Of a DNA stretch of 53,097 nt, positions 3,115 to 10,914 are shown piece after piece. The position numbers and the translations under genes are program-made. The notes beneath the pieces are model-generated. The model was not told the origin of the DNA. It searched no databases and saw only the letters and a list, made by a program, of their open reading frames with translations. Numbering within the stretch: the first letter of the stretch is position 1; each line of letters begins with the position of its first letter. Origin of the DNA: Pirellulales bacterium (GTDB lineage Bacteria > Planctomycetota > Planctomycetia > Pirellulales > S012-138); contig JALCBR010000019.1 in the NCBI GenBank assembly GCA_028066245.1, positions 1 through 53,097 of the forward strand, written 5' to 3'.

Positions 3115-3534
3115 GGAGCCTTACCTGGACCGACGCGTCGAGCATATATAGAACGAGCTTAGCTAGCTTTCTTGCAAAATCGCTATGTTGAACCTTGCGA
3201 ACAGTGTGCCCACAAACAGCACCTGCAGTTACAAGAACGCATTACCTGCTACTGCAAGCGGAAGCGCGCATGCCAAATGAAAATCGTAGTTTTGTGCGTG
3301 AAACCAGAGCAATTTCGAAATCAGCCCGCTGAGCCGGTTGTTCAGGTTGTTCATGGCAGGCTGACTCTGCCAGCATGCAGGAATATGGCGAATATGCAGC
3401 GTCCCAGAGGAACTAAGCGAGAAGCGAGCGCAGCCCACCCGGGCTGCTGGAAGGCCGGCCATCATGGATGTGACTCGTGAGCTCGCTTCTTGCAAGCCTT
3501 GTTTGCAAGATCTCCGCTTCTCACTCATTGCCAC
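3115..3534. other. Intergenic region with nested inverted repeats
   Basis: This 420-bp stretch has no supported gene. It lies between the 3' end of the MBL gene and the 5' end of the tolC-like gene, both on the minus strand. A 10-bp inverted repeat (agaagcgagc at 3420-3429, gctcgcttct at 3481-3490) encloses a small hairpin, CAGCCC-accc-GGGCTG, at 3431-3446. These could mark transcript termination downstream of the MBL gene, but no T-tract follows. The tolC promoter must lie in the part near 3115-3200, where an AT-rich TATATATG box on the minus strand (about 3143-3150) is the best -10 candidate. Confidence 0.4.
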
Positions 3535-7691: not shown

Positions 7692-9428
7692 CTATGCATG
7701 TGACGCTTGAACGCGTTCCATGGAGAATCCGGATGCGGCCGGATGAATACCGGAGATCGCTCTCCCGGAGATGTCACCAGATGCCGTCTGCCATGATTCA
7801 TCCCAGCTGAGAGCTTCGGGTGTCGAGCAGGCAATGCTTCGCCCCCGCGGTACAGTAGCTGACGCTGAGGACCCCGCGGTGCGACCGCTGACGAAGAATT
7901 CTTCAAACAGCTCGCGCATCCAGAATTGCTCGTGCGTGGTAGGTGGGGCATCGGCAAATCGTTCCGTCCGAGCATCCCAGTCTTGTTGCGAAATAGTGGT
8001 CGCGGCATGTTCCCGTAACTTGTCAACCCAGTCGTATCCGACGCCATCAGAGAATTGCTCTTTAGGGCGCCAGAGGGTTTCTTCGGGCAACCAAGGTTGT
8101 CGATCATCATCGAATGCAGCACGGAGAAAATACTTTTCCATCCGCGGATGACGACCATCCGGCGTTTGATCCATGTCACACATCTTTTCGCGTGGATCAA
8201 TGTCCATAACCAAGTCGACAAAGGCTTGATCCAGGAAAGGAAATCGAACCTCCAGACCGTGGGCCATCGGCGCTTTGTTGGCTCGCATGACGTCGAATTG
8301 GTGCAGTCGTGTCACCTTGCGAACCAGTTCTTCCTGCATTTCTTTCCCGCTTGGCGCTTTGTGAAAGTACAGATAGCCGCCGAGCAGTTCATCGGCACCT
8401 TCTCCCGAGAGAACCATCTTGATACCGCACTCGCGAACTTTACGGGCGAGGATCTTTGTTGGCACAGCCGTGCGAATTTGCTCAAAGCTCTCAAGGTGGC
8501 GGACCACAGATGGAACCTCGGCCAGCGCCTCCTCGACCGTAAAGTGAAATTCGTGATGGATGGTTCCCAGGAATTCGGCCATCCGTCGTGCGGCGAGGAG
8601 ATCCGGAGAACCCGGAAGCCCAATTGAGAAGGTATGGAATTTGTCACTGAAGCTCCGTAGTCCCGACGCTTGCGGGCCCAGCCGAACGGCGATGGACGCG
8701 ATCAGCGAGGAGTCCAATCCGCCGGAGAGCAACAAGCCACATGGCACGTCACACATCAGCCGTTTGGTAACCGCCTTGATGAGCGTTTCGCGGACAGCTT
8801 CTTCGTCAACGGTTTGTTGCGGGATATATCCTGGCTGTTGCCAGGCCGGATCGTACCACTTCTCGCGGCGCAAGCCGTGTTCGTCGTAGATCCACGCATG
8901 TCCCGGCGGAACGATCTCGACAGAATCGCAATCGTCAACGAGGGCCTTCATTTCGGAGGCAAACCACAGACTTCCGTCCGCGTGACGACCGAGGTACAGG
9001 GGGCAAATTCCGATCGGGTCACGCGCGGCAATCCAAGCTCCCTGCTGCTCATCGACGATGACAAAAGCAAACTGCCCATCCAAGTGGCGTGGAAGGTCTG
9101 TTCCGTAAGCCTGCCATGCCGGACCAAAGATTGCACTATCGCAGGGGGAAAGGCCCTCTACGCCAGTTTGTTGGCGAAGCTGGTGATGGTTGTAGATCTC
9201 ACTGTTGGTGACCCAGGCCAGCCCATCAAATTCGTACGGTTGGGCCCCATCTTCCGGGGAGACGATGGCCAGACGGCGATGTCCAAGCCAAGAAGCTGTG
9301 CCTTGCCAGACTCCGCGGGCATCCGGACCTCGATGTTCAAGCCGGTCCAACAACAATTCCGCTCGAGGAGCGTGACCGCCAACCGAGAAAGTTGAATCTG
9401 CCTGTAAAATTGCCAAAAAACCGCACAT
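7692..9428 (-). CDS. asnB: Asparagine synthetase B, glutamine-hydrolysing
   Basis: This enzyme makes asparagine from aspartate, ATP and glutamine. The true start is the ATG at 9428, giving MCGFLAIL with the catalytic Cys2 of the class II glutaminase domain; it is preceded by AAGGA at a good distance. The protein has 578 residues. Glutaminase motifs are RLEHRGPD (about 29-36) and EIYNHHQLR; the usual NGEIYN reads TNSEIYN here, a Gly-to-Ser change beside the oxyanion Asn. The synthetase domain has the ATP pyrophosphatase loop SGGLDSS (235-241), and the C-terminus has the usual DxSGRA-like motif. It is divergent from nadA. Expression is probably controlled by the leader peptide and terminator directly upstream (9469-9611). 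Confidence 0.96.
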   Translation of the reverse strand: MCGFLAILQADSTFSVGGHAPRAELLLDRLEHRGPDARGVWQGTASWLGHRRLAIVSPEDGAQPYEFDGLAWVTNSEIYNHHQLRQQTGVEGLSPCDSAIFGPAWQAYGTDLPRHLDGQFAFVIVDEQQGAWIAARDPIGICPLYLGRHADGSLWFASEMKALVDDCDSVEIVPPGHAWIYDEHGLRREKWYDPAWQQPGYIPQQTVDEEAVRETLIKAVTKRLMCDVPCGLLLSGGLDSSLIASIAVRLGPQASGLRSFSDKFHTFSIGLPGSPDLLAARRMAEFLGTIHHEFHFTVEEALAEVPSVVRHLESFEQIRTAVPTKILARKVRECGIKMVLSGEGADELLGGYLYFHKAPSGKEMQEELVRKVTRLHQFDVMRANKAPMAHGLEVRFPFLDQAFVDLVMDIDPREKMCDMDQTPDGRHPRMEKYFLRAAFDDDRQPWLPEETLWRPKEQFSDGVGYDWVDKLREHAATTISQQDWDARTERFADAPPTTHEQFWMRELFEEFFVSGRTAGSSASATVPRGRSIACSTPEALSWDESWQTASGDISGRAISGIHPAASGFSMERVQASHA

Positions 9429-9468: not shown

Positions 9469-9497
9469 AAAAAAACCCCGTCCTGGTCGGACGGGGT
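9469..9497 (-). terminator. Intrinsic terminator in the asnB leader (attenuator)
   Basis: On the minus strand a perfect 9-bp stem (ACCCCGTCC / GGACGGGGT) with a short loop is followed directly by a run of seven T. It lies 40 nt upstream of the asnB start codon and downstream of the leader ORF, so it would terminate asnB transcription prematurely unless disrupted. The 5' arm is also complementary to a segment inside the leader ORF (9549-9558). Confidence 0.92.
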
Positions 9498-9527
9498 GAT
9501 TCGCTCGTTTTTTGATTTGAGTCTTGC

Positions 9528-9611
9528 TCAGGCTCTCAACAAACGGCGACCCCGTCCGCAGCTGCGGTTAGAATTGCGGTTGCCGTTGGAATTGAATCGA
9601 GACGTGAACAT
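9528..9611 (-). CDS. Asn-rich leader peptide of asnB
   Basis: This is a 27-codon ORF (ATG at 9611, TGA ending at 9528). After MFTSRF it reads NSNGNRNSN, giving five Asn codons (AAT, AAC, AAC, AAT, AAC) in nine consecutive codons, then an Arg/Gly-rich tail RSCGRGRRLLRA. Such clustering of the amino acid made by the downstream enzyme is the hallmark of ribosome-mediated attenuation. The ORF sits 30 nt upstream of the terminator stem. The Shine-Dalgarno match is weak (AGAG about 13 nt upstream). The peptide itself probably has no function after its translation. Confidence 0.85.
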   Translation of the reverse strand: MFTSRFNSNGNRNSNRSCGRGRRLLRA

Positions 9612-9858
9612 GACTTTTGAACTCTAGTCTCAGCTCTCACGTAGGACAAGAGAAATCTCGGCCATGCTCGCCCGTTTCTCAAATCTAAATACAATTTAAA
9701 GCGATTTTTTCGGCTTACCACGTTTGCAATAGCTTTACATGCATCCGTTGGCCTTGATCAACAAAAGCATCACCGTATAAAGGAAGCATCGACGCAAGGC
9801 CGTCGCTAAATCGCTGGATGTGGGTTGCCCTCCGCCACACAAAAAACAAGGAGCCATC
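9612..9858. promoter_or_regulatory. Divergent control region of asnB leader and nadA
   Basis: This 247-bp region separates the asnB leader ORF (minus) from nadA (plus) and must hold both promoters. An AT-rich core around 9680-9710 (aaatctaaatacaatttaaa) is the likeliest promoter zone, but I cannot assign reliable -35/-10 boxes. An AAGGAG ribosome-binding site at about 9848-9853 decides the nadA start. Confidence 0.45.
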
Positions 9859-10914
9859 ATGCCTGATGACTTTCCTGCCTACACATCCCCTCCTGTCCGT
9901 CACGCTTCAGATTCCTCGACTGCGCGCGCCCCCGTTCAGCTTGCGCATACGGGCTTGACGTCTCCTGCAGAAACCGGTGCTTCTGATCCGGAAGACTTGT
10001 GCCTGGAGGTCGAGGATCTGCTGAAATCGCGCGATGCGACCCTGCTCGCACACTATTATCAGAACGGCGAAATTCAGGAACTCGCACACATCACCGGCGA
10101 CAGCTTGCAGCTTGCTCGCGCCGCGATGGAGGTTTCCACGTCCACGATCGTCTTCTGTGGCGTGCATTTTATGGCGGAAACCGCCAAGATGCTGAACCCG
10201 GAGAAACGCGTTTTACTTCCTGACTTGCTCGCTGGCTGTAGCCTGGCCGAGAGTTGTCCCGCGCCTGCGCTCGCCGAGTTTCAGGTGCAACTGCGGACTC
10301 AGGGTGTCCGTTTTGAAACGGTGACTTATGTCAATAGTTCCGCCGGGGTTAAAGCGATTTCTGATTGGGTCGTCACCAGTGGAAATGCCGAGGAAGTCAT
10401 TCGTCGCATTGACCAAGATGTTGAAATCTTGTTTGTTCCGGACCGTCACCTGGGAAGCTACCTACAAGATGTGACGGGGCGAAAAATGATCCTGTGGAAC
10501 GGAGCATGCGAAGTACATGAGATTTTCAGCGTTGGCGACCTTCTGAAACTCAAGCGACGGTTGCCGGAGGCCGTGACCATCGCCCACCCCGAATGTCCAG
10601 CAAACATTCGCGAACACTCCGACTACGTTGGCGGTACGCGGGGTATGCTCAAGCACGTGGAAAAGTATCGCGATCCCATGGATTTCCTTGTCGCGACGGA
10701 AGCCAATATGCTGTGGCAACTGCAAAACGCCACCCCACGGCATCGCTATCATCCCGTGCCTGGGGTGACCTGTGCCTGCAACAAATGTCCACACATGGCT
10801 CAAAATACTCTGGTGAAGTTGCGGGATTGCCTGCGAGATGGAACGCCTGAGATTCACTGGCAGGAGAGTTTCACGCAAGCGCGCAAGGTGGTGATCCGTA
10901 GCTTCACCAGCTAA
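9859..10914 (+). CDS. nadA: Quinolinate synthase
   Basis: NadA condenses iminoaspartate with dihydroxyacetone phosphate to make quinolinate, the NAD precursor, using a 4Fe-4S cluster in the cytoplasm. The start at 9859 is chosen over the in-frame ATG at 9820 because AAGGAG sits five bases upstream. The 351-residue protein shows [21 protein letters not shown] (about 62-82) and the cluster-ligand cysteine regions: [11 protein letters not shown] (Cys127), [18 protein letters not shown], and CACNKCPH (305-312). An N-terminal extension of about 45 residues precedes the conserved core. It is divergent from asnB; both pathways consume aspartate. No nadB or nadC is in the window. Confidence 0.95.

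Follow-up and report, generated by a model that had tools for sequence, protein, structure and literature searches.

The stretch of DNA analysed here (the window, 53,097 nucleotides of contig JALCBR010000019.1 of a Pirellulales bacterium) contains a gene for an asparagine synthase and, divergent from it, nadA, with a short leader region between the two (Table 1). The synthase scores 568.5 bits against NF006949 (cut-off 499) and 351.9 bits against TIGR01536, and has the Pfam domains Asn_synthase and GATase_7; judged by these profile matches, the gene is a true asnB of the Escherichia coli type. Between the leader ORF and asnB there is an intrinsic terminator, recognised from its sequence, and the spacing between its last position (9469) and the ATG of asnB (9428) is 40 nt. 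Since the upstream neighbour nadA is divergent, this terminator serves no co-directional upstream gene. A second, terminator-like hairpin (AGTCATCAGGCATGATGGCT followed by CCTTGTTTTT, window positions 9852-9871, minus strand) lies over the start of nadA, on the strand opposite to this gene.

Table 1. Genes, leader elements and predicted RNA helices around the start of asnB (positions in the window).
Feature	Position	Strand	Basis
asnB, glutamine-hydrolysing asparagine synthase B, 578 aa, controlled gene	7692..9428	-	NF006949, TIGR01536, Pfam
T7 tract of terminator	9469..9475	-	sequence
3:4 terminator stem ACCCCGTCC-GACCA-GGACGGGGT, 9 bp, loop GACCA	9475..9497	-	sequence
2:3 antiterminator, 9557-9541 (GGACGGGGTCGCCGTTT) with 9510-9489, inner hairpin	9489..9557	-	folding
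1:2 protector helix, 5' arm 9610-9576 (Asn codons), 3' arm 9553-9525	9525..9610	-	MFE without ribosome
Leader ORF MFTSRFNSNGNRNSNRSCGRGRRLLRA, 27 codons	9528..9611	-	read between divergent nadA and asnB
CCGCAGCTGCGG, 4-bp hairpin, AGCT loop, tip of 1:2 helix	9556..9567	-	leader codons 16-19
Tentative promoter TTGTCC-17 nt-TAGAGT	~9619..9650	-	read from the letters, 8/12 consensus bases
nadA, other side of leader, divergent from asnB	ORF 9820-10914, ATG ~9859	+	

The leader ORF carries asparagine at codons 7, 9, 11, 13 and 15 (AAT, AAC, AAC, AAT and AAC), exactly as the original prediction had described it, and the amino acid enriched in it is the product of the AsnB enzyme: a short leader ORF thus has a cluster of codons for the very amino acid that the controlled gene serves to make. 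To appreciate how unusual this is we have taken as background 641 kb of the organism's own genome, in which only 2 of the 14,402 ORFs of 8-40 codons have at least five Asn within nine residues; a smaller sample, whose length limits differed slightly, gave one such ORF in 4,783. Under loose criteria the same 641 kb contain 221 pairs of an ORF with a terminator, and the leader ORF is the only one among them with that Asn density. The leader also contains seven Arg among its 27 residues. We have rejected arginine as the signal, runs of Arg being common in the short ORFs of this genome and unfitting for asnB. A self-complementary sequence that had been placed at the end of the ORF (CCGCAGCTGCGG) is indeed present, but lies in the middle of it, and its hairpin might possibly act as a pause hairpin. 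No Shine-Dalgarno sequence was recognisable before the leader ATG. The promoter-like element listed in Table 1 was not picked up by an automated scan that requires nine consensus bases; some 10 nt separate its end from the leader ATG, and an almost leaderless mRNA may result.

The three helices usual in attenuators can be drawn in this region, 2:3 and 3:4 strongly and 1:2 less so. The terminator (3:4), for which the stem, the T7 tract and the distance to asnB had all been predicted, was reproduced at the same coordinates and, as read from its letters, is of the canonical, strong intrinsic type. For the antiterminator (2:3) a pairing of 10 bp had been proposed, and it is exact: 9558-9549 (CGGACGGGGT) pairs with 9497-9488 (ACCCCGTCCG). 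This is, however, only the outer part of a larger helix of 17 bp (8 + 4 + 5 bp) that encloses an inner hairpin and whose full extent the original prediction had missed. The antiterminator segment folds with -31.9 kcal/mol, against -15.4 +/- 2.8 for shuffles in which region 3 was kept fixed (n = 1000), giving a z of -5.8 with 0/1000 shuffles reaching this value. In the stretch tested, the longest perfect match between the leader and the 5' arm of the terminator measures 9 nt, as found in one of 2000 shuffles. Region 2 is located inside the leader ORF. Also absent from the original prediction is the leader-wide 1:2 helix (-30.5 kcal/mol at an RNA length of 90-105, ribosome absent), whose advantage over shuffles, taken alone, is slight (47/1000). 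It is predicted to form first, before region 3 appears, and by the end of region 3 the 2:3 pairing beats it at equilibrium.

A way to explore how translation might act on these alternatives is to fold the RNA with simulated ribosomes, blocking the footprint at chosen codons in RNA made up to region 3 or in the full leader. With the RNA made up to region 3 and the ribosome at any position from Asn7 to Asn15, the antiterminator has a mean pair probability of 0.82-0.93; in silico, a stall at the control codons favours the mutually exclusive antiterminator as long as region 4 has yet to be transcribed. For RNA that ends with region 3, the equilibrium favours it as well when the ribosome is absent or sits at the stop codon. 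In the latter position the ribosome hides the inner half of the antiterminator and leaves the 9-bp outer part, which would have to close across a 50-nt loop holding the ribosome. A ribosome stalled at codon 15 would hide part of region 2 as well. In the full leader at equilibrium the terminator has a probability of 0.98 if the ribosome is absent or stands at the stop codon. Stalls at Asn7, Asn9 and Asn11 give the antiterminator 0.08, 0.16 and 0.40, respectively, and those at Asn13 and Asn15 give it 0.03 and 0.00. In other words, the terminator wins in every full-leader fold, and antitermination would therefore depend on kinetics and the order of synthesis, as in trp. Presumably the 1:2 helix holds long enough in the absence of a ribosome to allow termination.

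These observations lead us to predict, with a probability of roughly 0.84, that asnB is under the control of an Asn-specific, ribosome-mediated transcription attenuator. The best reading of the locus would thus be a new specificity (asparagine) of a known mechanism. When charged tRNA-Asn is plentiful the leading ribosome would pass the five Asn codons, reach the stop codon and mask region 2; alternatively, the leader would refold into the 1:2 helix. With region 2 masked or engaged in 1:2, the 3:4 terminator would form and transcription would end 40 nt before asnB. When charged tRNA-Asn is scarce, the ribosome would stall within codons 7-15 and cover region 1. The stalled ribosome would prevent the 1:2 helix, so that regions 2 and 3 could pair as the long antiterminator ahead of the synthesis of region 4, and RNA polymerase would continue into asnB. 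We infer for this attenuator a promoter, translation of the leader ORF, termination in vivo and dependence on asparagine. The genome encodes an AsnRS (C43, 625 bits, cut-off 342.6), and tRNA-Asn should therefore be chargeable from free asparagine, whose level charged tRNA-Asn can report; with such charging, a tRNA-Asn signal is sensible for asnB. The proposal that Asn-starved ribosomes could switch asnB on is thus supported in silico by the ribosome-block folds, and also by the identity of the gene as a true asnB and by the presence of AsnRS. The divergent orientation of nadA and the Asn-rich leader of 27 codons in the closest relative of this asnB (see below) give the attenuator further support.

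Searches through the genus, family, order, class, phylum, plasmids, genome contigs and viral contigs retrieved a single other AsnB with more than 49% identity. This sole close relative, in a genome of another class (G241, locus L012), is 61% identical, and in the AsnB tree the two form a clade with 100/100 support, apart from 29 others; the other AsnB genes of the window's own order belong to a different lineage. Upstream of the relative, at -195, there is an ORF of 27 codons (MTLRARLTVNRNRCGNLPRRFAVMVLD) with the Asn motif NRNRCGN. In G241, a random 250-nt segment would hold an ATG ORF with three Asn among seven residues with a probability of ~7e-4. This leader ORF folds into a leader-wide hairpin (z of -6.6, 0/1000) whose 5' arm and tip contain the Asn codons, and it is followed by another strong hairpin (ACTGCTCAGC...GCTGAGCAGT). 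No U-tract follows the 3:4 hairpin at L012, and a possible 2:3 pairing there (CGGCGG...GCTG with CAGCCCCGCCG) was no better than chance (192/1000 shuffles). Of what had been expected in close relatives, the leader and its alternate pairing, the Asn leader is thus found in the one relative available, but a U-tract terminator and a significant antiterminator were not recognisable in it. The frequency of terminators with a U-tract is some tenfold lower in G241 (4 in 390 kb) than in the genome of the window (39 in 358 kb), and G241 may therefore stop transcription otherwise, or control translation. A hairpin at L012 (GGCAGGGGATTGGAACCTGCC, 3208-3230, minus strand) abuts the start codon of the G241 asnB and could hide its ribosome-binding site, making translational control possible there. 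The sequence TAGAGTTC, from the promoter-like region of the window, recurs upstream of the L012 leader.

None of the other AsnB genes read, at 40-48% identity, has a comparable Asn leader, including 16 from the same order with readable upstream regions, which makes the attenuator a feature of one asnB lineage. Since no close AsnB was found in its family, the organism of the window has probably gained asnB by horizontal transfer, as the AsnB clade also suggests, and the leader perhaps came along with it. A wider claim would be that this is the first Asn-specific attenuator of the ribosome-mediated type, from a phylum where our searches met no description of any amino-acid attenuator, that a distinct asnB lineage passed from one planctomycete class to another with its leader and that the relative works without a U-tract terminator; this we put forward tentatively, its chances falling somewhat short of even.

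Other explanations of the locus have to be weighed against the Asn-specific attenuator. The terminator and the strong helix that competes with it could serve any riboregulator that does not sense tRNA-Asn by translation (such as a T-box, a riboswitch for a metabolite or a leader bound by a protein). The Asn cluster would then be incidental, and the structure is indeed significant irrespective of the ORF (leader and terminator as a whole, z of -3.5 against shuffles). Nevertheless, with Rfam 15 the leader gave no match, T-box included, at the gathering score or at E values up to 5, and an incidental cluster fits poorly with its rarity (2/14,402 ORFs) and with the recurrence of an Asn-rich leader in the nearest orthologue, so that we consider this explanation very unlikely. 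A T-box, in particular, was rejected: the conserved T-box and specifier domain were not found with Rfam 15. Control could also be partly translational, a stalled ribosome altering the access to the asnB start. This is more likely for L012, where the GGCAGG...CCTGCC hairpin abuts the asnB ATG, changes with the simulated ribosome positions and is accompanied by no U-tract; in the window, where the terminator with its T7 is canonical and 40 nt away from the asnB ATG, it seems highly improbable. Finally, simple hairpins are common, yet it is scarcely credible that the 5' region of asnB simply holds a terminator that acts constitutively, or a hairpin that trims the transcript, along with a chance ORF and no regulation, because a terminator directly before asnB makes little sense unless conditional when there is no co-directional upstream gene, the antiterminator is far beyond chance and the Asn leader recurs in L012.

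Text searches of the literature retrieved no Asn-specific attenuator, most subscription papers being outside their scope, and an earlier prediction may exist (e.g., in the 2010 survey of Lopatovskaya et al., cited in PMC4833913). Neither did the literature searched contain a description of an amino-acid attenuator in Planctomycetota. If the Asn-specific attenuator is true, leader-peptide attenuation would gain asparagine as one more amino acid that it senses, and this type of control would extend to Planctomycetota. It would also require the coupling of transcription and translation at the asnB leader, a point on which the cell biology of planctomycetes can be tested directly.

In E. coli, the asparagine synthetase gene asnA is controlled by AsnC, and the system proposed here resembles it in being an Asn-responsive control of such a gene, although AsnC is a DNA-binding protein and not an RNA attenuator. 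The resemblance to T-boxes lies in that both would sense the charging of a tRNA and act by antitermination; T-boxes, however, bind the tRNA directly, and the leader of the window has no match to the T-box family in Rfam 15. T-box control is found in Firmicutes, where a few T-box operons hold asnS, and no T-boxes were found in the one planctomycete examined (PMC2494555). The closest parallels are the ribosome-mediated attenuators of the trp, his, leu, thr, ilv and pheA operons (for the mechanism see PMC1183508), a class of which actinobacterial examples have also been described (PMC1262725). Like them, the window has a leader ORF rich in codons for the end product, predicted 1:2, 2:3 and 3:4 helices, the first of them less strongly, and an intrinsic terminator before a biosynthetic gene. 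Unlike them, it would respond to asparagine, control the single gene asnB and belong to a member of the Planctomycetota, with region 2 inside the leader ORF and a leader mRNA that may begin almost at its start codon.
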